Source: Bradyrhizobium sp. NP1
GTDB lineage: Bacteria; Pseudomonadota; Alphaproteobacteria; Rhizobiales; Xanthobacteraceae
DNA: 64,000 nt
Assembly: GCF_030378205.1 (NCBI RefSeq)
Contig: NZ_CP127385.1
Span: forward strand, 2,396,001-2,460,000
Direction: 5' to 3'
A program made the position numbers and the translations under genes. How positions within the stretch are numbered: position 1 is the stretch's first letter; each line of letters opens with the position of its first letter. The notes beneath the pieces are model-generated. The model did not search any database. It saw nothing but the letters and a program-made list of their open reading frames with translations, and was not told where the DNA came from. Shown here piece by piece: positions 10,290-49,113 of the stretch.

Positions 10290-10308
10290 GCGGCGGGAGA
10301 TCGACGTG

Positions 10309-11412: not shown

Positions 11413-11604
11413 ATGGTGATCAAGCAGGAAGGGGCGCCGTACCAGCGTCTGCTCATGGACAAGGTCAGTGTCGTGAACGTCGGGCTGGAAGGCTTCGTGA
11501 AGGATTTGCGCGATTGCGACATCGAGGTCGTCCATGTCGACTGGGTGCCGCCTGCCGGCGGCGACCCGAAGATGGCGGCGCTGCTCGCCAAGCTCGGCGT
11601 GTGA
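11413..11604 (+). CDS. Small protein equal to the detached C-terminal module of FdrA
   Basis: A 63-residue protein with an excellent ribosome-binding site. Its core VSVVNVGLEGF...VEVVHVDWVPPAGGDPKMAALLAKL matches the extreme C-terminal segment of full-length FdrA, which in E. coli reads as a similar VINIGL...VHYQW-P-AGGN stretch (recalled family knowledge). The FdrA encoded at 12862-14397 ends without this segment. So the module is made in trans here, upstream of allG and fdrA in the same operon. It is probably a subunit or docking piece of the carbamoyltransferase complex. The existence of the gene is well supported by start site, operator and conserved motif; its separate role is inference. 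Confidence 0.8.
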   Translation: MVIKQEGAPYQRLLMDKVSVVNVGLEGFVKDLRDCDIEVVHVDWVPPAGGDPKMAALLAKLGV

Positions 11605-12865: not shown

Positions 12866-14397
12866 GCGCGCATGTCCTGAACGAAATTCGCAAGGGCTTC
12901 TATCTCGACTCGGTCGCGCTGATGCGGCTGTCGCGCGAGATCGCATCCGCAGTGGGTGTCATCGAAGCGGCGCTGATGATGGGGACGCCATCCAATCAGG
13001 CGATCATGCGGAACGCCGGACTGCTGGGCGCAGGCGTCGCCGCGCAGGGCAACGATCTGATCGTCGCGATCAAGGCGGAGAGCGAAGAGGCCGCGCGCGC
13101 TGCGCTCGGCGAGGCGCTCAAGGCGCTGGACAAGCCCAGGAGCCGGGCCTCGGGCGAAACCGAGTGGCGGCCGCGCAGCATCGCGGCGGCCGTCAAGGCC
13201 GTGCCGGCCGCCAATCTGGCGCTGATTTCCGTTCCCGGCGAGTTCGCCGCGGCCGAAGCCCGCAAGGCGCTGAACCGCGGGCTGCATGTCTTGATGTTCA
13301 GCGATAACGTCTCGATCGCCGACGAGCTGTCGCTCAAGCAGCAGGCGCGCGACGCCGGCCTTCTGATGATGGGGCCCGACTGCGGCACGGCCGTGATCGG
13401 TGGCGCGCCGCTCGCGTTTGCCAACCGGCTCGAGCGCGGCCGGATCGGGATCATCGGCGCATCCGGCACCGGCACGCAGGAAGTCTCGTGCCTTCTCTCG
13501 GAGGCCGGCGAGGGCATTTCCCACGCGATCGGCGTCGGCGGCCGCGATCTCAAGAAGGAGATCGGCGGCATCACGACGCTGATGGCGATCGATGCGCTCG
13601 ACGCCGATCCCGAAACCGATCGTGTGGTGTTGATCTCCAAGCCGCCGCATCCGGACGTTGCGAAAGCCGTGCTGGCGCGGATCGGAATGAGCCCAAAGGC
13701 CTATACGGTCTGCTTCATCGGTGCGGCCTCGGTCGATCTGCCGCCGAATGCGCGCTTTGCCGCAACGCTGAAGGAGGCCGCGGAAAAGACGCTGCACGGC
13801 GGCCGGCGTATCGGCGCCGGTTTCGACGCGGTTGCACTGGCTGCGCGCCTGACGCGACGGCGCAAGGCGTCGCATCGCATCGAAGGACTTTTCGTCGGAG
13901 GGACACTATGTGCCGAGGCGCAGGTGATCCTCACCGCCGGCGGCCGCAAGGTGGCAAGCAATGCCGCGATCCCCGGTGTTCCCCATGTCGATGCGTCGGA
14001 GGCTGCGGGGCGCGATCTTATCGTCGATCTCGGGGCCGACGAATATACCCAGGGGCGGCCGCACCCGATGATCGATCCCTCCGTCCGCGACGAGGCGCTA
14101 CGGGCGGCCCTGATCAATCCGGAGATTGCCGTCATCCTGCTCGATCTCGTGATCGGCTACGGCGCGCACGCCAATCCGGCGGCCCATCTGGCGCGGATCG
14201 TGGCTGATCGCCCGGACGATGCGCCGATCCTGGTTGCGTCCGTGACGGGAACGGAGCTCGACCACCAGGTGCGCTCAGCGCAGATCAGGCTGCTGGAGGA
14301 GGCCCGCATCGTGGTCGCGCCATCCAACGCCCAGGCCTGTGAATTGGCCCTCGCTCTTGCAACCGACGTCAGGATGCCGCGCTATGCGAACACTTAA
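12862..14397 (+). CDS. fdrA: FdrA, AllF subunit of oxamate carbamoyltransferase (lacking its usual C-terminal tail)
   Basis: A 511-residue protein related to succinyl-CoA ligase alpha/beta subunits. Visible motifs are MMGTPSNQAIMRNAGL, MMGPDCGTAVIGGAPLAFAN, IGIIGASGTGTQEVSC, GVGGRDLKKEIGG, RPHPMIDPS and LLDLVIGYGAHANPAAHL. Together with DUF1116 and DUF2877 it is assigned to oxamate carbamoyltransferase. The start ATG overlaps the allG stop. The protein ends after the ligase-like second domain and lacks the terminal NVGL...HVDW...AGG module, which is encoded separately at 11413-11604. Its stop overlaps the carbamate kinase start by 14 bp, so the genes are coupled. Confidence 0.9.
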   Translation: MSAHVLNEIRKGFYLDSVALMRLSREIASAVGVIEAALMMGTPSNQAIMRNAGLLGAGVAAQGNDLIVAIKAESEEAARAALGEALKALDKPRSRASGETEWRPRSIAAAVKAVPAANLALISVPGEFAAAEARKALNRGLHVLMFSDNVSIADELSLKQQARDAGLLMMGPDCGTAVIGGAPLAFANRLERGRIGIIGASGTGTQEVSCLLSEAGEGISHAIGVGGRDLKKEIGGITTLMAIDALDADPETDRVVLISKPPHPDVAKAVLARIGMSPKAYTVCFIGAASVDLPPNARFAATLKEAAEKTLHGGRRIGAGFDAVALAARLTRRRKASHRIEGLFVGGTLCAEAQVILTAGGRKVASNAAIPGVPHVDASEAAGRDLIVDLGADEYTQGRPHPMIDPSVRDEALRAALINPEIAVILLDLVIGYGAHANPAAHLARIVADRPDDAPILVASVTGTELDHQVRSAQIRLLEEARIVVAPSNAQACELALALATDVRMPRYANT

Positions 14398-27566: not shown

Positions 27567-28040
27567 ATGGCCTTTACCATCAAAGTCAATGGAAACGCCC
27601 ACAGCGTCGATGTCGATGGCGATACGCCGCTGCTCTGGGTGCTGCGCGACGTGCTGGGCATGACAGGCACGAAATTCGGCTGCGGCGTGGCGCTATGCGG
27701 TGCCTGCACCGTGCATATCGATGGTGTCGCGACGCGCTCCTGCGTTACCCCGATCGACAGCGTCGGCGAGTCTCAGGTCATGACGATCGAGGCGATCGGT
27801 ACGACGCCCGCCGGCGCAAAGATCCAGAAGGCCTGGCTCGACCATGAGGTCGTTCAGTGCGGCTACTGCCAATCGGGACAAATCATGTCGGCTTCGGCGC
27901 TGCTGGCAAGCAATTCTCAGCCCACCGATTCCGACATCGACGACGCCATGAGTGGGAATATCTGCCGCTGTGGGACCTACATGCGCATCCGCGAAGCGAT
28001 CAAGATCGCTGCCGCGGAATCCAGCAAGAAGGGAGGCTGA
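27567..28040 (+). CDS. Molybdenum hydroxylase small subunit with two [2Fe-2S] clusters (IorA/CoxS type)
   Basis: A 157-residue iron-sulfur subunit. The ferredoxin-type cluster ligands are in [18 protein letters not shown] with a later Cys in TRSCVTP, and the second cluster has [11 protein letters not shown] and [11 protein letters not shown]. The start ATG follows GAGGAGAGG. It carries electrons from the molybdopterin subunit encoded 2 bp downstream to an acceptor such as a cytochrome; no FAD subunit is encoded here, as in isoquinoline 1-oxidoreductase-type enzymes. Substrate unknown; aldehydes or N-heterocycles are usual. Confidence 0.92.
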
Positions 28041-28042
28041 CC

Positions 28043-30220
28043 ATGACCTTCAATCGCATCATGCCTCGCGCGTCTGACGCCAGCCTGTCGCGGCGGACCT
28101 TCCTCGCAACCAGTGCAGCTGTCAGCGGCGGCCTGATTGTGAGCCTCTGCCTGCCGTTTGGTCGAAGCGATGCCGCCGGCTCCGAGGCCTTTGCGCCGAA
28201 TGCGTTCGTTCGGATCGGCAGTGACGGCCAGGTTGTTCTCACCATGCCCTATGTCGAAATGGGGCAGGGCACCTACACCTCGATCCCGATGCTGATTGCC
28301 GAAGAGCTCGACGTCAGTCTGAATCAGGTGCGGCTCGAGCATGCGCCGCCGAATGAAAAGCTTTATGCCAACCCGCTGCTCGGCGTGCAGGCGACCGGCA
28401 ATTCGAACGCCATGCGCGGCGCCTGGAAGCCGTTGCGCGAAGCCGGTGCCACCGCACGGATGATGCTGGTCGCCGCGGCGGCCAAGCGTTGGGAAGTCGA
28501 CGCGAAATCGTGCCGCGCGCAGGACGGCGAGGTGATCCACACGCCGACCGGACGACGCCTGAAATATGGCGAGCTCGCCGCTGAGGCGGCAAAGATGCCT
28601 GCGCCCACGGGCGTCGCGCTCAAATCGCCGGACGAGTTCAAGCTGATCGGCACGCCCGCGAAGCGGCTCGATGCGCCGGGCAAGGTCAATGGAACGGCGC
28701 TTTATGGCCTCGATGCGAGGCCGGCGGGCGTGAAGATCGCGACGCTTGCGCAATCGCCTACCTTCGGCGGTCGCGTCAAGAATCTCGACGACACCGCGGC
28801 GAAGGCCGTGAAGGGCGTGCGCCAGATCGTGCGGCTCGATGATGCAGTTGCTGTCGTCGCCGACCATATGGGCGCCGCGAAAAAGGGGCTCGAGGCGCTC
28901 AAGATCGAATGGGACGATGGCCCGCATGCCGCGCTCGCCACCGATGAGATCGCCCGCCAGCTCGATCAGGCGACGCTCGGCTCCGGCGCGGTGGCGCAGA
29001 ACATCGGGGATGCTGACAAGGCGATGGCCGGCGCCGCTACCAAGGTGGAGGCGACCTATCAGGTTCCGTTCCTGGCGCACGCCACGATGGAGCCGATGAA
29101 CTGCACGGTGCATGTGCGCAAGGATGCGTGCGACATCTGGATCGGCAGCCAGGCCGTGGCACGGGTCCAGGCAATGGCTGCGCAGGCCGCAGGCCTGCCG
29201 GTCGAGAAGGTCATCGTGCACAATCATCTGATCGGCGGCGGTTTCGGCCGGCGACTTGAGGCGGACGGTGCGGTGCGTGCGGTCGAGATCGGCAAACATG
29301 TCGATGGTCCGGTCAAGGTGGTGTGGACGCGCGAAGAGGACATCCAGCACGACATGTATCGGCCTTATTGGTTCGATCGCATTTCCGCAGGGCTTGACCA
29401 GCAGGGCAGGCTGGTTGCCTGGAAAAATCGCTTCGCCGGATCCTCGGTGATCGCGCGCTGGCTGCCGCCGGGATTCAAGGACGGCCTCGATCCGGACTCG
29501 ACGGAAGGCGCGATCGATCTGGTCTATGACCTTCCGAACTTCCACGTCGAATATGTGCGGGCGGAGCCTCCGGCTATTCCGACCGCATTCTGGCGCAGCG
29601 TCGGTCCCTCCCACAATGTCTTCGTCACCGAAAGCTTTATCGACGAACTGGCCGCAGCCGCAAAGCAGGATCCGGTCGACTTCCGGCGATCTCTCCTCGG
29701 CAAGAACCCGCGCGCGAAGGCGGTGCTCGATCTGGCGGCGGAAAAGGCCGGCTGGGGTCAGCCTCTGCCCAAGGGGCGCGGCCGCGGCGTCTCGCTGCAA
29801 AACGCGTTCGGCAGCCTTTTGGCGCAGGTCGCCGAGGTCGAGGTATCGAAGGATGGCGCGGTGCGTGTTCGCCGCGTTGTCTGCGCGATGGATTGCGGCA
29901 CCGTCGTCAATCCCGACACGGTGCAGGCTCAGCTCATGAGCGGCATCGTCTTTGGTGCGACGGCGGCGCTCTATGGCGAGATCACGCTCAAGAACGGGCG
30001 CGTCGAACAGAGCAACTTTGACACCTACCAGGTGCTGCGCATGAACGAGGCTCCGGTGGTCGAGGTCCACCTCGTCAAGAGCACGGAGCCGCCCGGCGGC
30101 ATGGGCGAGACCGGGACGTCGGCGATCGTTCCCGCGATCGCCAACGCGATCTTTGCCGCGACCGGAAAGCGCCTGCGCAAGATGCCGGTTGACGCCAGCG
30201 CACTGAAGCAGCCCGTGTAG
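28043..30220 (+). CDS. Molybdopterin-binding subunit of an IorB-type aldehyde/N-heterocycle oxidoreductase
   Basis: A 725-residue catalytic subunit of the xanthine-oxidase family. It starts with a Tat signal (SLSRRTFLATSAAVSGG), so the enzyme is folded before export. Family segments include YVEMGQGTYTSIPMLIAEEL, GGGFGRRLEADG, VGPSHNVF and the catalytic-Glu region PGGMGETGTSAIVPA near the C-terminus. Together with the preceding subunit it forms a periplasmic two-subunit dehydrogenase. A role in purine (xanthine-like) or aldehyde oxidation is possible; context does not settle it. Three small genes for redox or stress proteins follow on the same strand. Confidence 0.9.
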   Translation: MTFNRIMPRASDASLSRRTFLATSAAVSGGLIVSLCLPFGRSDAAGSEAFAPNAFVRIGSDGQVVLTMPYVEMGQGTYTSIPMLIAEELDVSLNQVRLEHAPPNEKLYANPLLGVQATGNSNAMRGAWKPLREAGATARMMLVAAAAKRWEVDAKSCRAQDGEVIHTPTGRRLKYGELAAEAAKMPAPTGVALKSPDEFKLIGTPAKRLDAPGKVNGTALYGLDARPAGVKIATLAQSPTFGGRVKNLDDTAAKAVKGVRQIVRLDDAVAVVADHMGAAKKGLEALKIEWDDGPHAALATDEIARQLDQATLGSGAVAQNIGDADKAMAGAATKVEATYQVPFLAHATMEPMNCTVHVRKDACDIWIGSQAVARVQAMAAQAAGLPVEKVIVHNHLIGGGFGRRLEADGAVRAVEIGKHVDGPVKVVWTREEDIQHDMYRPYWFDRISAGLDQQGRLVAWKNRFAGSSVIARWLPPGFKDGLDPDSTEGAIDLVYDLPNFHVEYVRAEPPAIPTAFWRSVGPSHNVFVTESFIDELAAAAKQDPVDFRRSLLGKNPRAKAVLDLAAEKAGWGQPLPKGRGRGVSLQNAFGSLLAQVAEVEVSKDGAVRVRRVVCAMDCGTVVNPDTVQAQLMSGIVFGATAALYGEITLKNGRVEQSNFDTYQVLRMNEAPVVEVHLVKSTEPPGGMGETGTSAIVPAIANAIFAATGKRLRKMPVDASALKQPV

Positions 30221-36141: not shown

Positions 36142-36909
36142 ATGGCCAAGCAGATCTTCAACTACGACCTCAGCCGGATACCCCTTTATATCCAGGTCGC
36201 CTCGGTCATGCGGCAACGCATCGAATCGGGCCTCTGGAAAGAGGGCGACAAGATTTCGACGATCGAGGAGCTCGAGACCGAGTTCGGCGTCGCCCGCATC
36301 ACCATCCGGCAGGCGATCGAGATCTTGAGCGAGGAAGGCCTGCTCGATGCCCGCCAGGGCAGGGGCACCTTCGTCTCGGGACGGCCCAAGGGCAGGCATT
36401 GGTTCAACCTCGCGAGCGATCTCGACGCCGTCGTCAGCTCGATCAAGAACAACGTTCTGCGCATTGTCCATATCGAGGAGGACGCGATGCCTCCGATGCT
36501 CGAGGACAACGAGGGCGTGCTGGCGGACGGCTATACGATGCTGCGCAGCGTGCAGTATCACGCCGACGAACCGTTTGCCGTCGTCAACCTCCATCTCGCC
36601 CGCGACATCTTCAATCGCGACCGCAAGCGTTTCACGCGGCAGCCGGCGTTGCCGCGCCTGCTGGAGATGAGCGACGTCGCGATCTCCCACGCGCTTCAGA
36701 TCGTCACGATCGGCGTTGCCGGGCCTGAAACATCCGAGTTGCTCAAGATCGGCCTCGGCGAGCCGACGGCCGATTGCCGGCTGGTGCTGGTCGATGACAA
36801 CGGCACCGCCATCTACGTGGCGAAGTTCCACTATCACCGAAACTGTTTTGCCCTTCGCCGGGACCTGGTCGATCCGCGGAAGGGTGTTCGCCCTGCGGGA
36901 TCGCGTTGA
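36142..36909 (+). CDS. GntR-family regulator, HutC/UTRA type
   Basis: A 255-residue regulator. The N-terminal GntR winged helix is clear: PLYIQVASVMRQRIESGLWKEGDKISTIEELETEFGVARITIRQAIEILSEEGLLDARQGRGTFV. The rest is a UTRA ligand domain (DGYTMLRSVQYHADEPFAVVNLHLARDIF). It is convergent with the Rieske-oxygenase operon and is the only GntR protein nearby, so it is the natural candidate to bind the 25-bp palindromes at 40060-40084 and 43067-43091 (inference). The effector would be the imported substrate or an intermediate. Confidence 0.9.
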   Translation: MAKQIFNYDLSRIPLYIQVASVMRQRIESGLWKEGDKISTIEELETEFGVARITIRQAIEILSEEGLLDARQGRGTFVSGRPKGRHWFNLASDLDAVVSSIKNNVLRIVHIEEDAMPPMLEDNEGVLADGYTMLRSVQYHADEPFAVVNLHLARDIFNRDRKRFTRQPALPRLLEMSDVAISHALQIVTIGVAGPETSELLKIGLGEPTADCRLVLVDDNGTAIYVAKFHYHRNCFALRRDLVDPRKGVRPAGSR

Positions 36910-36986
36910 AGCCTGGGCGATAGCGCCGTTCCGACGCAGGCCCATTCAACCGTTCGGATTCCAAACCTCTTCAAAATGAAAGAGGA

Positions 36987-37007
36987 CCCCGAAGCCAGGC
37001 TTCGGGG
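36987..37007. terminator. Bidirectional terminator hairpin
   Basis: CCCCGAAGCC and GGCTTCGGGG form a perfect 10-bp inverted repeat around one central base. It lies between the convergent GntR gene (plus) and Rieske oxygenase operon (minus), the expected place for a shared terminator. There is an A-rich stretch to its left and no long T run. Confidence 0.5.
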
Positions 37008-37038
37008 CCAGTCAGGAGGAACCCCTCCGTCCGCATGA

Positions 37039-38121
37039 TCAAACCGCGGGCCGGGCCGTTTTCCGTGCTCCGGACGCGGTCGCGCCGCCCTCTTGGCGGG
37101 CGGCCGACTCCGCCTCGATCAGCTTGTCGACCATGCGGCGCATCTTCATCGGTGCGGCATCGATCCCCAGAATGATGCGCTTGAAGTCGGGATCGCGCTC
37201 TTCCTCGATCTGGATACGCTCAAGAATGACCTTGTCTTCCTTGAAGGCCATATCCAGGCTCGACGTCAGCTCGGCGTCCATGTCGTGCTCCTCGGTGCGG
37301 AAGTTGCGCACGTGGAACCAATGCTGCAGCACGGTTCGCTCGTCGACCGGGGTCAGCACGTGACAGGCGTACATCTGGACGCCCTCGGAGCGCTGTTCCA
37401 TGTCGGGGATGCTGCCGGCAGGGCACGAACCCATGTCGATCGCGAAATAGCAGGGCGTCGAATAGTTGTAGTAGTGCCAGCGATCGACCATGCCGCTCAG
37501 CTTGCCGAACTTGGCGAACAAGGGAATCGCGGGCGCATTGCGGATCCAGCGCCAGACCGTGATCTCGTTGTTGCGATACTCGTTGTTGACCGGCACCGTC
37601 GCGCCGGCCGGCGTGCCGAGCGTGGTGGTGTGCACGAAGGTGACGTGGGCGGGATCGAGCAGGTTGTCGCACAGGCTCAGATAGTTGCACTCGATGCGCA
37701 GCGTGTCGCCCTGCACCGCGTGCCAGCCGTCCTGTCCATATTGCGGCAAATGGAAGATCTTGCCCGGATCGGCATTCTTGGCGTCACCCATCCAGACCCA
37801 GACCAGCCCGTATTTGACCTGGAGCGGATAAGAGCGGACCAGCGCGCTGCCCGGAATGATGTCCTGCCCGGGAATGCGCACGCACTTTCCGCTGCAGTCA
37901 AAGGTCATGCCGTGATAGCCGCATTCGATCGTGTCGCCCTTCAGCTTGCCGAGCGAGAGCGGCGCCAGGCGGTGCGGGCAGGCGTCCTGAAGTGCCGCGA
38001 TGTCCCCGTTCTCCAGCCGGTAGATGACGAGCGGCTCCTCGAGCACGACATGCCGTGTCAGTTCGCGGCCGACGCGATCGGCCCATACCACGGGATACCA
38101 TGCCTCTTTGACGTATTTCAT
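37039..38121 (-). CDS. Rieske non-heme iron oxygenase, oxygenase subunit (VanA-like)
   Basis: A 360-residue ring-hydroxylating/demethylating oxygenase component. The Rieske cluster ligands are in QDACPHRLAPLSLG and ECGYHGMTF, and the mononuclear iron ligands in DNLLDPAHVTFVH. The N-terminal MKYVKEAWYPVVWADRVGREL is typical of the vanillate-demethylase group. The ATG at 38121 follows GAGGAGA. It is last in an operon behind the DUF1116-like and SDR genes. Electrons probably come from the ferredoxin (42732-43055) and its reductase (41497-42744), or from the VanB-type reductase (47346-48299). O- or N-demethylation is the best guess because formaldehyde genes are close. Confidence 0.88.
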   Translation of the reverse strand: MKYVKEAWYPVVWADRVGRELTRHVVLEEPLVIYRLENGDIAALQDACPHRLAPLSLGKLKGDTIECGYHGMTFDCSGKCVRIPGQDIIPGSALVRSYPLQVKYGLVWVWMGDAKNADPGKIFHLPQYGQDGWHAVQGDTLRIECNYLSLCDNLLDPAHVTFVHTTTLGTPAGATVPVNNEYRNNEITVWRWIRNAPAIPLFAKFGKLSGMVDRWHYYNYSTPCYFAIDMGSCPAGSIPDMEQRSEGVQMYACHVLTPVDERTVLQHWFHVRNFRTEEHDMDAELTSSLDMAFKEDKVILERIQIEEERDPDFKRIILGIDAAPMKMRRMVDKLIEAESAARQEGGATASGARKTARPAV

Positions 38122-38926: not shown

Positions 38927-39991
38927 CTAGTCTCCTGTTGAGAAAAGGGTTGGCGGAACGATCACGACCCCGCGGCCCAGCGGGGCGGCTGCACCGTCCC
39001 GATCGAGAATGGCGAGATTGATGATCGGTTCGATCCGGCTGTCCCTGATACGGGCAATGTCGACGATGCCGGAGTGGGAATCGACGATGCGGTCGCGGCG
39101 CTGCTTCAAATCCGACGGCAAGACGTCGGCCCATTCCTGCATGAGCGCCGGCGCGCAATGAAGCGCCTGGCCGCCAAAGCCGCAGATGTCGACGATGGCG
39201 CTGTCTCCGACCGCGCCGAGCGCATGCGCCGCGCGATCGGGCTGGAAATACTTTCCTGTCGGCGGCGGAGCCGGCATCGTTCGCCAGGCCGCCTGGTCGC
39301 GCGGCCGCCAGCCGAATTCGCGGCCGTTGCCGCCGATCGCGGCGATCATCGCCTGGCTGGTTTGCAGCTTCCAGCCTGCCCAGGCCATCCAGACCCCGAG
39401 CACGAAGCCGGCATTGCCCGATATCGCCGCCTTTATCTCCGCCGGCAGCGGGCCGAGCTGCTCGATGAACAGCCGATTGCCGGCGGCCGTGATGGCGTGG
39501 CACTCGTCGCCCTGCTGCAAGGCGGCCGACATCAGCGGCTCGACCGCGAGACCATTCGCCAGCAGCGGATTGATGGCGCCGGCCGCCTCGGCGCACCAAT
39601 CGCGCGCCCGCGTGGCGCATGCCGGATCGTCCGAGCCGAAGCGCAGCGCCGGCGGCGGCCCCTCGCCGACCGGCGAGTGGAAGACGCGCGTGTCGTCGCC
39701 GACTTCGAAGCACCACATCTGCGCGGACAGCACCATGCCGAGCGGAACCGCGATGCCGTGGTCCTGGGCCGGCAGCAGGTCGAGCTCGCTCCGCTCGATC
39801 ATGCGCCGCGCCTGTTCGGCGGTTTCGGCGAGGCCGCTGACGACCGCAGCCTGCGCTGCGGCATTCGTGACCGCTTTCGGGGGTGTTCCCCGGTAGGGCG
39901 GGCCCGCATGGAACAGTGTTCGGATGGAGAGATCCGGCCTGGCATCGTGCAATCGAACGAGGCGGCGGAGGCGCGCGTGCGTGTCTGTCAT
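38927..39991 (-). CDS. Divergent DUF1116 (AllG-like) family protein
   Basis: A 354-residue protein that at first sight looks hypothetical but aligns along its whole length with the AllG encoded at 11615-12865. Matching blocks in order: LFHAGPP (26-32; AllG LHAGPP 41-46), PPPALRFGS (112-120; AllG KVMRFGG), GDECH (161-165; AllG GDEMH), GNGREFGWRP (221-230; AllG RNGTDFGVRV), VGDSAIVDICGFGG (261-274; AllG MGDSAIVETVGLGG) and EPIINLAILD (321-330; AllG APVINTGIAH). It is shorter mainly in the middle. No FdrA or DUF2877 partner lies nearby. It is first in an operon with an SDR and a Rieske oxygenase. Homology is seen in the sequence; a carbamoyl- or acyl-transfer role is inference. Confidence 0.8.
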   Translation of the reverse strand: MTDTHARLRRLVRLHDARPDLSIRTLFHAGPPYRGTPPKAVTNAAAQAAVVSGLAETAEQARRMIERSELDLLPAQDHGIAVPLGMVLSAQMWCFEVGDDTRVFHSPVGEGPPPALRFGSDDPACATRARDWCAEAAGAINPLLANGLAVEPLMSAALQQGDECHAITAAGNRLFIEQLGPLPAEIKAAISGNAGFVLGVWMAWAGWKLQTSQAMIAAIGGNGREFGWRPRDQAAWRTMPAPPPTGKYFQPDRAAHALGAVGDSAIVDICGFGGQALHCAPALMQEWADVLPSDLKQRRDRIVDSHSGIVDIARIRDSRIEPIINLAILDRDGAAAPLGRGVVIVPPTLFSTGD

Positions 39992-40059: not shown

Positions 40060-40084
40060 ATCATCCTATAAATAGCATGATAGG
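40060..40084. promoter_or_regulatory. 25-bp palindromic operator, copy 1
   Basis: ATCATCCTAT, 7 bp, ATGATAGG: ATCAT pairs with ATGAT and CCTAT with ATAGG. It lies in an AT-rich divergent promoter region between the DUF1116-like operon and the LIV-binding protein gene. It agrees at 21 of 25 positions with the site at 43067-43091. A further half-site ATCATCCTA occurs at 40145-40153. Probable binding site of the GntR-family regulator encoded at 36142-36909 (inference). Confidence 0.6.
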
Positions 40085-40215
40085 TTTTTAAAGCAAGGCA
40101 CTTGTGCCCATTCTATAAGCATATTTGATCGCAGTTGAAAGACTATCATCCTAATGTTATGCTTTTAGGGTGTCGAGCGGTCCGGCTCGACCGGGGGAAA
40201 CCAAGGAGGAGTTTT

Positions 40216-41370
40216 ATGAAGTCGTGTTTGCCGCGGGTCGCCGCTGGAATCATCGTCGCTTGTCTGGGGCAGGGCGCCCTGGCGCAGGACGCGACGATCA
40301 AGATCGGAATCAACCAGCCGCTGACCGGCGTGGTTGCCGCATCCGGCAATATGGTCACGGCAGGCGCCAAGATCGCGGCCGAGGATATCAATGCGAACGG
40401 CGGCATTCTCGGAAAGAAGATCCAGCTCGTCATCGAGGATAACAAGAGCAACCCGACTGAGGCTGCAAGTGTCGCCGAGAAGCTGATCACCAGCGACAAG
40501 GTGTCCGCGCTCGTCGGAGCCTGGAGCTCGACCTACACGCTCGCCGTCATGCCCAAGCTGATGGAATACAAGGTGCCGATGATCGTCGAGACGTCGAGCG
40601 CCGACAAGATCACGAGCTCGGGCAATCCCTATATTTTCCGCATCAGCCCCACCAACAGCACGGAAGCCAAGGCCTTTACGCGCTTTGTCGAGCCGCTCGG
40701 CATCAAGAAGGCCGACTTCCTGGTCGTGAACAACGACTGGGGGCTCGGCGCCGCGGCCGAGTTTTCCAAGATGCTGAAGGAAAAGGGCGCCACCGTGAAC
40801 CGTTCGCTGCAGATGGATGCAGCTGCACAGGACCTCTCGGCCCAGCTTTCCTCGATCAAGAGCTCCGACAGCGATACGCTGTTCATCACCACCAGCGTCG
40901 AGCAGATGACGCTTCTGATGAAGCAGGCCCAGGGCCTCGGCATCAAGCGCAAGATCGTCACCACCGGCGGCACCCTGCCGGACCAGCTGATCGAGCAGGC
41001 GGGCTCCGCCGCCAACGATTCCTATCACGACGCGATGTTCGCGCCCTGGTTCCCGGACACCGCTGGTGATCCCGATATTGCCAAGAAGTTCATCGCGACC
41101 TGGACCAAGGCCGGATTGAAGCCGGCCGGCATGCCGGAGGGCGCGCGGGGCTACGATGCCGTTCGCATTCTTGCCAAGGCGATCGAGAAGGCGGGCGCGG
41201 CCGACCCGGAGAAGATCCGGGCCGCGCTCTGGCAGGTCAGCTACGCAGGTCTCACCGGCAACATCAAGTTCGAGAAGGTTGGCCCCGAGGGCAAGGAAAG
41301 CGGGCAGAGCCCGGCCAGCACCCATCTCGTCAAGATCGAAGACGGCAAGGTGTCGCTGGTCAGCAAGTGA
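40216..41370 (+). CDS. LIV-type ABC transporter substrate-binding protein (no transporter genes nearby)
   Basis: Periplasmic binding protein, 384 residues. The ATG at 40216 follows AAGGAGGA and starts a signal peptide (VAAGIIVACLGQGALA, cut before QDATIK). The mature part begins IKIGINQPLTGVVAASGN and has INANGGILGKKIQLVIEDNKSNP, hallmark of the LivK/amide family. It faces the Rieske/DUF1116-like operon across the shared operator, so it probably binds that pathway's substrate. No permease or ATPase is encoded with it; it must use one made elsewhere. It is a close paralogue of the protein encoded at 46144-47304. Confidence 0.9.
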   Translation: MKSCLPRVAAGIIVACLGQGALAQDATIKIGINQPLTGVVAASGNMVTAGAKIAAEDINANGGILGKKIQLVIEDNKSNPTEAASVAEKLITSDKVSALVGAWSSTYTLAVMPKLMEYKVPMIVETSSADKITSSGNPYIFRISPTNSTEAKAFTRFVEPLGIKKADFLVVNNDWGLGAAAEFSKMLKEKGATVNRSLQMDAAAQDLSAQLSSIKSSDSDTLFITTSVEQMTLLMKQAQGLGIKRKIVTTGGTLPDQLIEQAGSAANDSYHDAMFAPWFPDTAGDPDIAKKFIATWTKAGLKPAGMPEGARGYDAVRILAKAIEKAGAADPEKIRAALWQVSYAGLTGNIKFEKVGPEGKESGQSPASTHLVKIEDGKVSLVSK

Positions 41371-41496: not shown

Positions 41497-42744
41497 TCAG
41501 GCTGGCCGCAGCCGGCCGAGATCGAAGGAGATATCGCTGACCTGGTCGATGGTGGGCGACACGCCCACACCGATCAGCTGTCGCGCAATGACGTGATCCC
41601 TGGCGGCATTGATCGAATCGACGGCGACGAGGCGGTCGACGGCATAGTGGAAGATCGAAAAGGACTTGCCGGCCATGTCGCCCCTCGCGACGCTGCGATC
41701 CGCGCTGCGCGACAGGCCCGCGATCTGCAGTTTGGCATCATACTGGTCCGACCAGAACCACGGCGTTCCCGTGAACGGCTTCTCCATGCCGAGCAGCGTG
41801 TAGGCGGCGGCGCGGCCCTGCTCGACGGCGCTCTGCACCGACTCGAGCCGCCTCATGGAACCGTCGGGCAGGCGGCACACCGTGCAATCGCCGGCAGCGA
41901 CGATCCCTGCGATCGAGGTGCGGCTGCAGGCGTCCACGATGATGCCATTGTCGCAGGCAATGCCGGCGCGGCGCGCCAGTTCGTCGTTGGGGATGATGCC
42001 GACGCCGACCAGGACGAGGCCAGCCTCCCAGCGCCGGCCATCGATCAGGCGGACCTGCGCGGTCGATCCCGACGTCTCGACCTTGTCGATCCGGGCGTCG
42101 AGCACGAGGGTGACGCCATGCGAGGCGTGCAGCCGGGCGTACCAGTCGGAGAGTTCGCGCGAGAGGGCGCGCTGGAGCAGCCGCGGCGCGGCTTCCAGCA
42201 CGACGACATCAGCGCCGAGCTTGCGGGCGCTGGCCGCGACCTCAAGGCCGATGAATCCGCCGCCGATAACCACGAGCGGGAGCCGCGCTTGCAGGCAGTT
42301 CCGCAGTCCTTTCGCAATCGCGCTGGCGTCCTCGCGCGAGCGGAGCGCGCATATCGTGCCGTCCGCGGGCGCGGCGTTGCCGAGCATTCGTGGCGTGGCG
42401 CCGGTTGCGAGCACGAGCCCGCTATAGGCGATCCTGCTGTCGTCCTGCAGTCGGACGGCTCGGGCGTTGGCGTCGATTTCGGCGACATGGGATGCGACGC
42501 GCAGGTCGATGTTCTTGCGCTCCAGCGCGGATACGTCGCGGATCGCGAGCTGCCGCGCATCCAGCGCTTCGCTCAACCAGCCCTTCGACAGCGGCGGCCG
42601 GTGATAGGGAGCGTGCGGCTCGCTGCCAACAAGCGTGACTCTCCCTTCGAAGCCGCCGGCGCGCAAGGTTTCCGCGGCCTGCAGGCCGGCCTGTCCGGCG
42701 CCGACGACAACGATGTGCGCGTCGGCCTCCGTCAAGTCTGACAC
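41497..42744 (-). CDS. FAD-dependent ferredoxin reductase (oxygenase electron-transfer component)
   Basis: A 415-residue FAD/NADH reductase of the rubredoxin/putidaredoxin-reductase family. FAD motif VVVGAGQAGLQAAETLR, HAPYHRPPLSKGWL, NAD motif LVVIGGGFIGLEVAASAR and the late FAD segment VAAGDCTVCRLP. A GTG start at 42744 overlaps the ferredoxin gene by 13 bp, so the two are coupled. It passes electrons from NADH to the ferredoxin and on to an oxygenase; the shared operator ties it to the Rieske operon. Confidence 0.9.
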   Translation of the reverse strand: MSDLTEADAHIVVVGAGQAGLQAAETLRAGGFEGRVTLVGSEPHAPYHRPPLSKGWLSEALDARQLAIRDVSALERKNIDLRVASHVAEIDANARAVRLQDDSRIAYSGLVLATGATPRMLGNAAPADGTICALRSREDASAIAKGLRNCLQARLPLVVIGGGFIGLEVAASARKLGADVVVLEAAPRLLQRALSRELSDWYARLHASHGVTLVLDARIDKVETSGSTAQVRLIDGRRWEAGLVLVGVGIIPNDELARRAGIACDNGIIVDACSRTSIAGIVAAGDCTVCRLPDGSMRRLESVQSAVEQGRAAAYTLLGMEKPFTGTPWFWSDQYDAKLQIAGLSRSADRSVARGDMAGKSFSIFHYAVDRLVAVDSINAARDHVIARQLIGVGVSPTIDQVSDISFDLGRLRPA

Positions 42745-43066: not shown

Positions 43067-43091
43067 ATCATCCTATTAACGGAATGATAGG
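43067..43091. promoter_or_regulatory. 25-bp palindromic operator, copy 2
   Basis: ATCATCCTAT, 7 bp, ATGATAGG, just 12 bp upstream of the ferredoxin start. Same length and arms as the copy at 40060-40084. Its position over the translation-initiation upstream region fits repression of the ferredoxin-reductase operon. Confidence 0.6.
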
Positions 43092-44307: not shown

Positions 44308-44886
44308 CTAGGGCGTCAAAACCCCGGATTTCTTCGCAACGTGTGTTGCGATCGCATCCATCAGAGGCGGCGACAGGCAATCATAGGGGGCAAGGCCCGC
44401 ATCCTTCAGCGTCCTGCGCACGGATTCCATCCTGTCCGGTCTGACGCCCGACTCGATCACCGACGACACGAAGGCCGCGAATGCGGGCGGCGCCCAACCC
44501 TCATCCTTCGACAGCTCGGTATGGATGAAGTCGAGACCGTAGAACGGATGATCCTTGTTCTCGATGCGGCCGTACATGTGGACACCGCAGTCCTTGCAGG
44601 CGTGGCGCTGGATGGCCGCGCCTTCATCGACCACGTAGAGCTTGGCAGCATTGGCGCCGACCCGCAGCCCGTCGCGCGGCACCACGCCGACCACCGAGAA
44701 CATGGCGCCATCCGGCTTCCAGCATTTGGTGCAGCCGCAGGCGTGGTTGTGCGCGACCTGGCCCTTGATCTCGACCGTGACCGGCGCGCTCGCGCAGGAG
44801 CAGGAGAGCGTGCCGCCGGCAAAATCCGGCTTCGCCGGGCGCATGCCGCCGTCGATGGAGGGATGAATACGGATAGCGTCGGACAT
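44308..44886 (-). CDS. gfa: Glutathione-dependent formaldehyde-activating enzyme (Gfa)
   Basis: A 192-residue Gfa/CENP-V-fold protein that speeds the addition of formaldehyde to glutathione. Zinc-binding cysteines are seen in [21 protein letters not shown] and [12 protein letters not shown]. The ATG at 44886 follows AGAGGAG. It is downstream of class III alcohol dehydrogenase, with which it forms the first two steps of glutathione-dependent formaldehyde oxidation. This indicates that the surrounding oxygenase genes produce formaldehyde by demethylation (inference). Confidence 0.9.
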
Positions 44887-44934
44887 CAATGGCTCCTCTG
44901 GTCCTTCAAGATGAACGAACTTGGCCGGCTCGCG

Positions 44935-46047
<1,113 letters not shown>

Positions 46048-46143
46048 CCTGTTGTCCTTGACGTTTTCCATGCGGACGGCGCGGCTCGCTGGGCCCGCCG
46101 TCCGTCTCGTTGCTGGTGAGGGTGCTTGAGGTTCTGAAAAGAT

Positions 46144-47304
46144 CTACTCGACGAGCTTGATCTTCCCGCCGTCGACCTTGACGAAGTAGATTTGCGGGAT
46201 GCTCTGGCCGCTTTCCTTGCCGGCCGGCCCGGCCTTGTTGAACGTCACCGTGCCGTTCAGTCCGGGAACGGAGACGTTCCACAGCGCCTGACGGATCGCC
46301 TCGGGCTCGTCCGATCCCGCCTTGCGGATCGCTGCCGCGATCACCTGAATGCCGTCATAGCCGCGGAAGCTTTCGGTCAGCCCCGCGGGCGCAAATCCAC
46401 GGCGCGCCCAGGCGTCGATGAAGGCTTTCGCCTTCTCGGGGTGGGCTGTCCTGTCCGGCGTCCAGGGCGAGAAGAACACGAGATGGACCGAGCCATCGGC
46501 CGCCGCGCCGGCATGTTCGACGAGCTGATCCGGGCTCTGCGAGCCGCCGGTCGTGATCACCTGCTTGCCGAGATTGAGCGCCTTGACCTGCTTGAGCACC
46601 AACGTGAGCTGCTCGACCGCCGTGGTCACGATCAGCGTGTCGGAATCCGACGACTTGATCTTGGCGATCTGCGCGCTCATGTCCTGCGCCGCCTGGTCCA
46701 TGATCTCGGTCAGGCCGACCTGGATGCCGTTCTCCTTGAACATCTTGCTGAAGTCGGCTGCGGTGCTGCGGCCCCAGTCGTTGTTGATGATGAGGAAGTC
46801 GGCCTTCCTGATCTTGAACGTATCGAGCTTGCGCTTGAGGCCCTCGGCCTCGAGGTAGGCGGGCGCGGCGATTCGGAATATGTAGGGGTTGCCGCTCTCG
46901 GTGATCTTGTTGGCGCCGGAGGTCTCGACCAGCATAGGCACCTTGTATTGCATGACGACGGGAAGTGCCGCGAGCGTCAGGGTCGAGCCCCAGGCGCCCA
47001 TCACCACATGGACGTTGTCGCGCGAGATCAGCTTTTCGGCGACGGATGCGGACTCCGTCGGATTGCTCTTGTTGTCCTCGACGACGAGCTTCAGCTTCTG
47101 GCCGAGCACGCCGCCATCGGCATTGATCTCGTCGGCGGCGATCCTGGCTCCGTTCAGCACATAATTGCCCGACGCGGCAAACGGACCGGTCAACGGCATG
47201 CTCACGCCGATCGCGATCTCGGACGCGTGGCCTGACGCGATCGCGCCCAGCATCAAGGCGAGACCCGCAGCTATCGAGCGCTTTATGTTTTCTGTCTTGC
47301 GCAT
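46144..47304 (-). CDS. LIV-type ABC transporter substrate-binding protein
   Basis: Periplasmic binding protein of 386 residues with signal peptide (SIAAGLALMLGAIASGHA). The mature part EIAIGVSMPLTGPFAASGNYV and INADGGVLGQKLKLVVEDNKSNP closely matches the protein encoded at 40216-41370, so the two are paralogues, probably binding related compounds. AGGAGGGG sits at correct distance from ATG 47304; the GTG at 47310 is too close. No permease or ATPase genes accompany it. It lies between the VanB-type reductase and frmA. Confidence 0.9.
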   Translation of the reverse strand: MRKTENIKRSIAAGLALMLGAIASGHASEIAIGVSMPLTGPFAASGNYVLNGARIAADEINADGGVLGQKLKLVVEDNKSNPTESASVAEKLISRDNVHVVMGAWGSTLTLAALPVVMQYKVPMLVETSGANKITESGNPYIFRIAAPAYLEAEGLKRKLDTFKIRKADFLIINNDWGRSTAADFSKMFKENGIQVGLTEIMDQAAQDMSAQIAKIKSSDSDTLIVTTAVEQLTLVLKQVKALNLGKQVITTGGSQSPDQLVEHAGAAADGSVHLVFFSPWTPDRTAHPEKAKAFIDAWARRGFAPAGLTESFRGYDGIQVIAAAIRKAGSDEPEAIRQALWNVSVPGLNGTVTFNKAGPAGKESGQSIPQIYFVKVDGGKIKLVE

Positions 47305-47345
47305 TTTCACTCCCCTCCTGTTTTTCGTTCATCGAGAACGTGACG

Positions 47346-48299
47346 TCACAATTGCAAAACCAGCCTCTTTGTTTTTGATCGAGAAACGCATGGCAGGATC
47401 ATCGCGTTGCTCGCGCGCTGCTCGTCGTCCAGCAGGTCGTCGCGATGGTCCGGTTCGCCCGCCGCGACCTTGAGCAGGCACGTGCCGCAGATGCCGGCGC
47501 GGCAGGAATTGGTGACCTGGTAGCCGGCGTTTTCCAGCACTTCGAGCAGGCTGTCATCCTCGCCGACGACAAGAACCTGGCCGGAAAGCGCCAGTTCGAC
47601 CTCGAAGCTGTCGCCGGCAGCAGGCTCGGCGACCAGCTTCGGCGCAAAGCGCTCACGGTGCAGGGAGGCTGGCGGCCAGCACCGCGATGCGCCCTCGACC
47701 GCGTCGATCAGCGGGCCGGGGCCGCAGCAATAGATCAGCGTGCCGCGCTGCGGGACCGACAGGTGCCGGTCGAGATCGATCAAGCCGAACTCGTCCTGCG
47801 GCACGATGGAGATGTCGGCATCCTGATGGCCTGCGATCTCGTCGAGAAACGCCATCGAGCCGCGCGTGCGACCGCCATAGACCAGTGTCCAGGGGCGCCC
47901 GTGGCGCGACGCCTCCTTCAGCATGGGCAGGATCGGCGTGATCCCGATGCCGCCGGCGATGAACAAATAGCGGTTCGCATCGGTCAACGCGAAGTTGTTG
48001 CGCGGCCCCGACACCGGTATCACGTCGCCGGCACGCAGGGCGTCGTGAACATAGGCGGAGCCGCCGCGGCTGTTCGGCTCGCGCAACACCGCAATCCGCC
48101 AGGTCTCGCGGTCAGCGAGCTCGCCGCACAGCGAATATTGTCGGGCGATGCCGTTGGGCAGTTTCAGATCGATATGCGCGCCCGCGTCCCAGGCGGGCAG
48201 GAGGCCGCCGTCGGCATGACCAAGCTCGATCGCGAGCACGCCGTCCGCGACCGCGGAGAGGCGGCGTACCCTGGCGTTGAATGTCGAGCTTGCGTCCAT
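47346..48299 (-). CDS. VanB-type oxygenase reductase (FNR-like plus C-terminal [2Fe-2S])
   Basis: A 317-residue single-chain reductase of the phthalate-dioxygenase-reductase/VanB family. It has an FMN/flavin segment RQYSLCGELAD, an NAD(P)H domain (FIAGGIGITPILPMLKEA; LIYCCGPGPLIDAV) and a C-terminal ferredoxin with NSCRAGICGTCLLKV. The ATG at 48299 starts MDASSTFNARV. It supplies electrons to a Rieske or di-iron oxygenase. It lies 94 bp downstream of the ferritin-like gene, which may be its partner. Confidence 0.9.
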   Translation of the reverse strand: MDASSTFNARVRRLSAVADGVLAIELGHADGGLLPAWDAGAHIDLKLPNGIARQYSLCGELADRETWRIAVLREPNSRGGSAYVHDALRAGDVIPVSGPRNNFALTDANRYLFIAGGIGITPILPMLKEASRHGRPWTLVYGGRTRGSMAFLDEIAGHQDADISIVPQDEFGLIDLDRHLSVPQRGTLIYCCGPGPLIDAVEGASRCWPPASLHRERFAPKLVAEPAAGDSFEVELALSGQVLVVGEDDSLLEVLENAGYQVTNSCRAGICGTCLLKVAAGEPDHRDDLLDDEQRASNAMILPCVSRSKTKRLVLQL

Positions 48300-48393
48300 C
48301 GTGTTGCCTTGCAGCGGGTGTCCCGCGACGACCCGTATGAACGGGTCGCGCGAGCAATGGCGGCGCATGGCGGCGCCGGATCGATGATCTGCG

Positions 48394-49113
48394 TCAGACG
48401 GCGGCGGCCGTCTTGCCTTCCCTGGCGCGCATCGTTGCGGCCACCACTTCGGGCGTGAACGTCTTCCAGGCGATGTCGCGCATGCCGATCATCGCGCGCA
48501 GGATTTCCTCGCGATCCTCGTCGGTCTTGGCGTAGGTGCTGAGGATCTGCCGGCCGAGCCCGGTGTGGAATTTCTCGTCGATCTCGATCTGCTTGTAGAT
48601 CTTCACCACCTCGGTGTGGCCCTGGCGCGCGGCGCCGATGAAGGTCGGCTCGAAGCTGCCCGAGGCGGAGGTTTCCGAGACGTACCAGGCCGCTATTCCC
48701 GCGAGATGATGACGGTCCATGCAACCCCAGAGCCAGCTGCTCCAGGGCACGGAAGAGTCAGGCACGCTGGTCGGCACGGTGCCGCCGAGCGACTCGACGG
48801 CCCGGCCGACGTCCTCATAGTGTTCGGCCTCCTGAAACGACTGCTTGGCAAGCAGCGTGATGTGATTGCGCTTGAAGCGCATGCCGTAGCGGCGGATCTG
48901 CTCGTTCAGCAGGAAGACATAATCGATTTCCCGCCACGCCCGCGTTTCAAGCCAGGTCGCCAATACCTTCGGATTCGGGTTCTCGTTGTAGGCGTCGAAG
49001 AAGGCCGTCGTGGCCTTCCGCGTGGTCTCGAAAACCGACTCCAGGATTTCGTCGACCTGCGTGCTGATCGGTGCCAGACCATCGCCGCCGCGTACTTTGT
49101 TGACGTCAAGCAT
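48394..49113 (-). CDS. Ferritin-like di-iron protein, possible oxygenase
   Basis: A 239-residue all-helical protein. Carboxylate and histidine residues placed like di-iron ligands are seen: the Glu in REIDYVFLLNEQ, E-x-x-H in SFQEAEHYEDV and E-x-x-x-x-H in IEIDEKFHTGLG. The helix spacing is that of a ferritin/MiaE-type four-helix bundle. It is followed by the VanB-type reductase, so it may be a reductase-fed di-iron oxygenase rather than an iron store. That role is inference; no family name can be given with certainty. Confidence 0.75.
   Translation of the reverse strand: MLDVNKVRGGDGLAPISTQVDEILESVFETTRKATTAFFDAYNENPNPKVLATWLETRAWREIDYVFLLNEQIRRYGMRFKRNHITLLAKQSFQEAEHYEDVGRAVESLGGTVPTSVPDSSVPWSSWLWGCMDRHHLAGIAAWYVSETSASGSFEPTFIGAARQGHTEVVKIYKQIEIDEKFHTGLGRQILSTYAKTDEDREEILRAMIGMRDIAWKTFTPEVVAATMRAREGKTAAAV

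Follow-up and report, generated by a model that had tools for sequence, protein, structure and literature searches.

The window analysed here, a stretch of 64,000 nucleotides from Bradyrhizobium sp. NP1 (contig NZ_CP127385.1, positions 2,396,001–2,460,000), contains at 38927–39991 a gene for a short protein of the DUF1116 family, to which AllG, a subunit of oxamate carbamoyltransferase, also belongs. This focal gene heads an operon with a short-chain dehydrogenase/reductase (SDR) and a Rieske oxygenase, and it faces the divergent gene of a periplasmic binding protein (Table 1). The uptake gene, the oxygenase, the SDR and the DUF1116 gene belong together, and the focal protein falls in a branch of the family whose loci lack FdrA (AllF) and almost always carry an oxygenase gene.

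Table 1 Features of the focal operon, its surroundings and the classical cluster (window positions)
Feature	Position	Strand	Details
Short DUF1116 (AllG-type) protein	38927–39991	−	354 aa; first gene of operon; Gln-type (A75-Q76-D77, L84, G221, A260, L326, D330)
SDR, 251 aa	38168–38923	−	adh_short_C2 1e-56
Rieske oxygenase, about 360 aa, VanA/DdmC-like	37039–38121 (ATG at about 38121)	−	Rieske 2.6e-21; VanA_C 6.2e-47
Terminator-like stem, 11 pairs, 8 GC	36985–37009	−	Just beyond Rieske stop codon; consensus scan alone
GntR/UTRA regulator, downstream of operon	36142–36909	+	Domain match
Operator-like palindrome, possible GntR site	40061–40083	.	Between DUF1116 and binding-protein genes; 8-locus alignment
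Second, degenerate copy of element	40146–40169	.	8-locus alignment
Liv/amide-type periplasmic binding protein, divergent	40219–41370	+	Peripla_BP_6 2.2e-68
Ferredoxin reductase, HcaD-like	41497–42744	−	Pyr_redox_2 and Reductase_C; overlaps ferredoxin gene
[2Fe-2S] ferredoxin, 111 aa	42732–43067	−	Fer2 2.2e-9
Related operator-like site, 3 mismatches	43068–43090	.	Directly upstream of ferredoxin gene
Classical AllG, comparison only	11615–12865	+	PF06545 5.1e-90; in AllH-AllG-FdrA-carbamate kinase cluster

The focal protein

The focal open reading frame (ORF) starts with ATG and shows a coding-like GC content at the three codon positions (0.71/0.53/0.83). The Pfam model AllG (PF06545) matches residues 72–264 of its product with an E value of 2.5e-27 and a score of 96.3 bits (cut-off 27); NCBIfam holds no fitting model, its two matches lying far under their cut-offs. 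In a single BLASTP comparison the protein aligns with the window AllG over nearly its full length, at 26% identity (E 3e-17). The blocks HAGPP (residues 28–32), RFG (117–119), GDECH (161–165), NGREFG (222–227), GDSAIVDICGFGG (262–274) and PIIN (322–325) line up in the same order with the corresponding AllG blocks, and the first-pass annotation, which had recognized a DUF1116 member from these ordered blocks and proposed a profile search, was right about the family.

Only one PDB sequence is matched at E values up to 1: that of 3CLQ, over focal residues 16–350 (E 6.8e-19), a 421-residue entry listed as ‘Uncharacterized protein’ with no function named, which we take to come from Enterococcus faecalis. 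A profile of 49 sequences finds 3CLQ over positions 17–355 of 357 with an E value of 2.1e-48, the one other match having E 0.74. Profile score and nearly full-length collinearity with this solved member assign the protein to DUF1116/AllG (PF06545). With AllG (YlbE) of Escherichia coli AllFGH it has in common the Pfam family, which is also that of the window's classical AllG, and a collinear core with shared H-A-G, R-x-G, G-D-x-x-H, N-G, W, G-D-S and G-x-G positions, but it is about 65 residues shorter than the 419 residues given for E. coli AllG in PMC11326118. It further differs in having no FdrA or AllH gene in its locus, in carrying Gln for an invariant His and in the replacement of R282, D322, T405 and H409 (window AllG numbering), and its setting is that of an oxygenase rather than of a carbamate kinase.

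The operon and its orthologues

The SDR gene starts 3 bp beyond the end of the DUF1116 gene, and both Rieske-oxygenase domains score above their cut-offs (Rieske 75.8 bits, VanA_C 160.7 bits), as in proteins of the VanA/DdmC type. Its two top PDB matches are 7QWT, named merely as a Rieske protein, and DdmC of dicamba O-demethylase, which matches residues 5–343 at 9.5e-46. Dicamba O-demethylase consists of three components, DdmC, a ferredoxin and a reductase; correspondingly, a Fer2 ferredoxin and a flavin adenine dinucleotide-dependent (FAD) reductase lie near the window operon, beyond the binding-protein gene as seen from the operon and with a related operator-like site, and we infer that they supply electrons to the oxygenase. 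We know of no DUF1116 protein or SDR in the dicamba system. The start of the binding protein was placed at the second ATG-type position, its longest ORF beginning at 40135. Terminator-like sites such as the one behind the oxygenase gene number five in the stretch, against 2.9 expected.

A search of 391 genomes of the bacterial family, including the window genome itself, returned six others with a relative of the focal protein, 59–69% identical. The order DUF1116-SDR-Rieske with the divergent binding protein is kept in 7/7 loci (the window and L082–L087; G and L numbers are our labels for genomes and loci, G000 being the window genome), the DUF1116 genes of L084, L086 and L087 having been located by profile. 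The co-directional arrangement described in the first-pass annotation is confirmed in the window, and the neighbourhood survey that it called for finds the orthologues beside oxygenase genes. Among the six relatives, identity to the window proteins is 88–92% for the Rieske oxygenase, 80–88% for the SDR and 76–86% for the binding protein. Relatives of the GntR regulator occur at the equivalent place in L085, L086 and L087 (67–68% identical), and L089 has one at 81%. The ferredoxin gene adjoins the operon in four of the six; in G882 it lies with a CoxL gene on another contig (L203). Counting G882, CoxL adjoins the ferredoxin gene in 5/6 relatives, and in the window genome an 81% relative lies at 7.29 Mb, together with a GntR paralogue and two operator-like sites that have three mismatches; a molybdenum hydroxylase as fixed partner of the focal operon was kept as a lead only.

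Two further genomes carry variants of the arrangement. In G941 (L089) the Rieske oxygenase, SDR, binding protein and GntR regulator are 77–81% identical to those of the window, and the DUF1116 protein is a 36% cousin of the same branch, which lies near the Rieske-SDR pair together with a COG3964 amidohydrolase and a molybdenum hydroxylase. In G565 (L056) a DUF1116 protein of 44% identity neighbours an amidohydrolase, an SDR (61%) and a 2-oxoglutarate (2OG)-Fe(II) oxygenase. The protein database suggests more pairings of DUF1116 and Rieske relatives on the same contigs (P0009/P0147, P0010/P0129, P0031/P0142 and P0038/P0138), one of the four apparently in Ramlibacter. Plasmid records with a match number 182, and in none of them is the relative of the focal protein closer than 60%.

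A branch of the family beside oxygenases

Loci were sought by similarity to the window protein, and 95 with a usable DUF1116 row, nearly all from Pseudomonadota, were compared with flanks of up to about 10 kb on each side, less at contig ends; four of the Gln-type loci defined below span 5–13 kb in all. Fourteen matches were left out (including G646, G992, G1004, G1081, G1120 and G996), all of which except G992, G1004, G1081, G1120 and G996 had E values above 1e-13, and one search was limited to E 1e-15, so that weaker, probably classical members are under-counted. The residue pair at H118 and R282 of the window AllG sorts the loci into 34 of Gln-type, 51 of His/Arg-type and 10 of neither type.

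FdrA is encoded in the fetched stretch of 0/34 Gln-type loci, and an oxygenase gene (Rieske, molybdenum or 2OG) in 33/34: 24 have a full-length Rieske oxygenase, one has a 2OG enzyme and the remainder a molybdenum hydroxylase, some with an additional small Rieske protein. The His/Arg-type loci show FdrA in 49/51 (48 inside the stretch, and L143, where it falls just past the fetched end) and an oxygenase in 2/51, both molybdenum enzymes, with no Rieske protein; the loci of neither type have FdrA in 0/10 and an oxygenase in 7/10. Fisher's test of Gln-type versus His/Arg-type loci gives P = 4.8e-20, which is not a true probability because the loci share ancestry. The Gln-type set contains near-copies (L091/L134 and L098/L099/L159), and in L098, L099 and L159 the oxygenase gene is about 8 kb away from the DUF1116 gene, a weak link. 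The window locus is counted among the 15 molybdenum-flagged branch loci through a gene at 27857–30220, distant from the operon. The first-pass proposal of a new use of the fold holds insofar as the use is probably other than the known one, and the association with oxygenases that it drew from this operon extends to the branch as a whole.

In a tree of 60 rows, 28 of the 34 Gln-type rows among them, the Gln-type proteins form one side of a split with support of 100/100, and in a quick tree of 100 rows all 34 stand apart from the other 66 (Shimodaira–Hasegawa-like approximate likelihood-ratio support, SH-aLRT, 100). The former tree omits rows at least 80% identical to a kept row as well as two rows with long branches, including the Gln-type L068, and the latter omits one partial row (251 aa); the tree columns include the diagnostic ones. 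Of the best 120 of 195 database relatives of the window protein, 117 are Gln-type and the other three are gapped at this position. The eight DUF1116 proteins of seven named plasmid records are likewise all Gln-type.

The Gln-type loci comprise the focal set, group A, group B and a set with Rieske and amidase genes. Group A combines a phthalate-dioxygenase-like Rieske protein with a 204-residue protein without known family, a Liv transporter, a binding protein and an FNR reductase; the solved relatives of its binding protein are listed as extracellular ligand-binding or amino-acid receptors. Group B has CoxL/M, a CoxS-CoxG fusion, a PRK09237/COG3964 amidohydrolase, MarR, a small Rieske protein and, in some loci, a phosphoribosyltransferase. 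Among plasmids, those of Paraburkholderia, Caballeronia and Azospirillum carry a molybdenum hydroxylase, with HpxZ and an amidase in the latter two; those of Ruegeria and Paracoccus carry Rieske and amidase genes, and Pacificitalea has a molybdenum hydroxylase, a Rieske protein and an amidohydrolase. On a Rhodococcus ruber plasmid, Rieske/VanB pairs accompany two DUF1116 genes, and formate dehydrogenase and malate synthase are encoded as well.

Several side observations attach to these sets. The window genome holds a second Gln-type locus, of group A (L055, G000:C1 about 662000–680000). The approximately 204-residue protein (L055:3928–4542 and relatives) has no Pfam or NCBIfam match and occurs in 12 loci, all with a full-length Rieske oxygenase and two of them with two copies; it is perhaps a small oxygenase subunit. 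The R. ruber plasmid NZ_CP145321 (L161/L166) is conjugative, and its two Gln-type genes and two Rieske/VanB pairs are accompanied by two C–N hydrolases, formate dehydrogenase and malate synthase G, a gene set that may hint at a substrate yielding formate and glyoxylate. On the Serratia plasmid NZ_OQ821180 (L170) a ring-opening amidohydrolase and a nucleobase symporter precede a classical FdrA-DUF1116-DUF2877-carbamate kinase cluster, an arrangement that may indicate barbiturate- or cyanurate-like substrates of the three-subunit enzyme.

Conserved and replaced residues

Eighteen positions show no variation across the 85 rows that make up the focal, A, B and FdrA-linked sets: H28, G30, R117, G119, D162, H165, M202, N222, G223, W236, G246, G262, D263, S264, G271, G273, G339 and G341 in focal numbering. 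Over all 100 aligned rows G119, D162, H165 and W236 are exceptionless, and the other 14 have between one and eight exceptions each, chiefly in rows that are truncated or of neither type. Five residues never vary in the 52 FdrA-linked rows, counted with L143 not yet taken as FdrA-type, and give way to others throughout the 34 Gln-type rows: H118 (Q76), M126 (L84), R282 (G221), D322 (A260) and T405 (L326), given in window AllG numbers with the focal residue in brackets. The replacement of H118 is by Gln in every Gln-type row. A sixth, H409 (D330), is replaced in 33/34. The ten rows of neither type lie on the FdrA side of the tree, yet they too have lost R282 and D322. Testing the residues against FdrA in phylogenetically independent pairs gave two supported pairs, too few for any power.

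The missing partners

Thirty-six genomes were searched for FdrA (NF004760, with a cut-off of 433 bits) and AllH (PF11392). Of these, 33 carry a Gln-type locus and three (G336, G321 and G371) a locus of neither type. FdrA and AllH are present in the same five genomes (G000, G938, G904, G918 and G1051), and 28/33 Gln-type genomes have neither an FdrA above the cut-off nor an AllH; these include four of the seven genomes with the focal gene (G784, G882, G862, which is one contig, and G1000). True FdrA matches score at least 476 bits and all others at most 52.4 bits; most of the latter cover the CoA-binding part only and look, we presume, like succinyl-CoA ligase alpha chains, and a few are C-terminal pieces. 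None of the 34 branch loci encodes AllH. Carbamate kinase is matched in one Gln-type locus (L056, 23% identical to the window kinase) versus 41/51 FdrA-type loci, which disfavours carbamoyl phosphate as product.

In E. coli the loss of any of allF, allG and allH abolishes oxamate formation, according to PMC11326118. Since AllF and AllH are absent, the branch protein cannot be a subunit of an oxamate carbamoyltransferase in the 28 genomes. With FdrA and AllH not encoded alongside and six FdrA-class residues replaced, the focal protein does not fall within oxamic transcarbamylase AllG; judged from its sequences, the partnerless branch belongs to the DUF1116 family and lies outside oxamic transcarbamylase.

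The first-pass annotation had described the focal protein as without partners, which is accurate for the operon and not for the genome: a classical cluster lies in the same window, approximately 24–29 kb upstream in window coordinates, with AllH at 10282–11310 and FdrA within 12424–14397. This FdrA looks split. Its main match spans profile positions 6–496 only, and positions 502–554 (about 53 residues) lie on a separate 63-residue ORF at 11413–11604 (+), between AllH and AllG. Similar C-terminal pieces occur in G918, G1051, G938, G904, G846 and G821, with in-match stop codons in G918 and G821.

Operator-like elements and surrounding genes

Alignment of the divergent regions of eight loci gives two common elements, the first of which is, in the window, the near-palindrome TCATCCTAT-AA-ATAGCATGATAG. 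Its pattern is found with up to three mismatches in 6/8 divergent regions and is absent in G862 and G1000. The 64 kb window contains two matches, one between the divergent genes and one at the ferredoxin gene, against 0.00 expected from 100 shuffles; the pattern having been derived from these loci, matches in divergent regions arise by construction and those at ferredoxin genes do not. In G784 and G882, too, the element lies ahead of the ferredoxin gene; at that place in L084, L086 and L087 it was not found. A reversed-pattern control gave no match in 7/8 genomes and one in G904. At 7.28–7.30 Mb of the window genome, sites with three mismatches lie upstream of a binding-protein/transporter operon and of a CoA-transferase/M20/CoxL operon, and the GntR paralogue of this locus is 66% identical to the window GntR. 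Matches with two or three mismatches are weak on their own, because several lack a visible pathway link; those in G784 C2, G784 C5, G862:3596723, G938 C10 and G000:4813224 were set aside for this reason. A further match lies at G941:2027712.

The distant locus (G000:C1:7274500–7312400; L200 and L201) also contains the F420 biosynthesis genes CofGH, CofC, CofD and CofE and an NADPH-F420 reductase, together with PxpA-like, diaminopropionate ammonia-lyase-like and luciferase-like monooxygenase genes, a CoA transferase, an M20 deacylase and a CoxL/M/S-G molybdenum hydroxylase; similar genes occur in G784 and G862. A role of the F420 genes in the pathway is not claimed: cofD is found in 6/7 genomes with the focal gene versus 67/248 in the bacterial family, some genomes being shared, and is lacking in G904, G941 and G565.

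On the other side of the ferredoxin gene, the minus strand at 44308–49113 encodes a formaldehyde-activating (GFA) protein, a binding protein, a DmmA-like/FNR reductase and a 239-residue protein without Pfam family, and resembles a demethylation cluster; the ORF at 44935–46071 is presumably of the alcohol dehydrogenase type. Vanillate- or dicamba-type O-demethylation as the entire pathway was considered from the DdmC-like oxygenase and the formaldehyde-type genes at 44308–46071 and rejected, these genes having no blastp match in the fetched stretches of six orthologous loci. The binding protein gave no decisive clue to the substrate: most of the solved structures related to the one in the window are listed as amino-acid receptors.

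A proposed function

We propose, at a probability of roughly 0.4, that the focal gene is a member of a DUF1116 branch that operates in oxidative catabolic operons independently of FdrA and AllH, and that its product is a single-component enzyme acting on a C–N bond of an oxidised nitrogen-containing compound. The binding protein would import a nitrogen-containing carboxylate or amide; the Rieske system, with the oxygenase, ferredoxin and reductase of a dicamba O-demethylase-like build, would hydroxylate or dealkylate it; and the SDR would turn the new alcohol into a carbonyl. The DUF1116 protein alone would then attack a C–N bond (amide, imide, lactam or ureide) of the SDR product, by hydrolysis or as a lyase and not by phosphorolysis to carbamoyl phosphate. 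H28, R117, D162, H165, N222, W236, D263 and S264 may bind and turn over the substrate, and the lost residues H118, M126, R282, D322, T405 and, in most rows, H409 may serve FdrA/AllH or phosphate in AllG. C–N chemistry is suggested because the known reaction of the family splits oxalurate, an N-acyl urea, and because amidohydrolase or amidase profiles match in 24/34 branch loci. The ureide- or amide-like substrate of the first-pass annotation is in this respect plausible, with an amidase, a COG3964 amidohydrolase or HpxZ beside the cousins; the carbamoyl transfer that it also put forward has lost ground through the replaced residues and the scarcity of carbamate kinase.

A number of observations weigh against the proposal. 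No hydrolase gene was found in the focal operon, so that the C–N reading is transferred from the cousins, and amidohydrolase or amidase matches are also present in 25/51 FdrA-type loci and hence are not specific. One Gln-type locus, L088, has no oxygenase, and the oxygenase type varies within the branch between Rieske, molybdenum and 2OG enzymes. Several widely kept positions have a few exceptions; H28, for example, fails in L068, L119, L120 and L160. L097 retains H409, and L066 and L102 retain the FdrA-class residues in genomes without FdrA, which makes the residues an imperfect marker.

Among other explanations, the protein might not be an enzyme at all and might bind or escort the substrate or product of the oxygenase, which we consider unlikely. 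Its partner subunits are absent, and it has diverged quickly (59–69% identity versus 88–92% for the Rieske oxygenase of the same loci), as under weaker constraint. A mere binder is less easily reconciled with the 18 positions identical in 85/85 rows and the four kept in 100/100, or with the retention of the gene in 7/7 orthologous loci and the presence of a same-branch cousin near the Rieske-SDR pair of L089 in its stead. It is similarly improbable that the protein has nothing to do with C–N bonds and converts the SDR product, which could be a 1,3-dicarbonyl, as an isomerase, lyase or C–C bond hydrolase. An alcohol oxidised by the SDR would become a carbonyl primed for C–C cleavage, and literature searches found no test of the chemistry of the family beyond the three-subunit enzyme; what speaks for C–N bonds instead is the recurrence of amidases, COG3964 amidohydrolases and HpxZ near the cousins, frequent as these are at FdrA-type loci too.

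There is a small chance that the protein is still a transcarbamoylase, which on its own or together with some other partner would move carbamoyl from phosphate to an acceptor of the amide type or back. Such a role would agree with the common family and the retained core residues, and it conflicts with the requirement for all three genes in E. coli (PMC11326118) set against the absence of the other two in 28/33 genomes, with the lack of a carbamate kinase match in 33/34 branch loci and with the replaced class residues. Borrowing of FdrA and AllH from the classical cluster of the window, conceivable in a genome that has one, is highly improbable for the focal protein and is contradicted for the branch by the 4/7 focal-gene genomes and 28/33 branch genomes that lack both.

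Among known systems, the Variovorax iad locus for auxin degradation also comes close: its N-heterocycle pathway includes a Rieske oxygenase, a solute-binding protein and an amidase-type step, and it uses acyl-CoA chemistry; the accessible parts of the sources name no DUF1116 gene (PMC12633357, PMC10374108 and PMC9613470). An iad identity of the cousins' clusters, suspected from their Rieske protein, small protein, Liv transporter and reductase, was rejected on that ground. No report of a partnerless or oxygenase-linked DUF1116 protein was found in the open-access full-text literature among the matches listed, and PMC11326118 and PMC12625717, in the parts accessible, both concern the three-subunit system.

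Implications for the family

The Gln-type branch probably has a role in the breakdown of nitrogen-containing compounds. A bolder and more doubtful view is that it constitutes a widespread, hitherto unrecognised single-component family that performs the C–N step after O2- or molybdenum-dependent hydroxylation in pathways for N-heterocycles or ureides, with the three-subunit transcarbamylase as an offshoot and the focal operon in a GntR regulon that reaches the molybdenum hydroxylase locus beside the F420 genes.

In databases, proteins of the branch go by the name ‘oxamate carbamoyltransferase subunit AllG’ (the Pfam title; the UniRef name of P0061). For the focal protein this label is very likely wrong, because the protein belongs to a separate branch that is found beside oxygen-using enzymes and mostly where the genome encodes neither of the other two subunits; Gln in place of His and the absence of FdrA provide a simple marker against such mislabelling. 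The chemistry of the transcarbamylase is not apportioned among its three subunits in the accessible part of PMC11326118, and a DUF1116 protein without partners offers a minimal system for the role of the AllG fold in that enzyme. The branch also points to oxygenase pathways together with their attached transporters and regulators.

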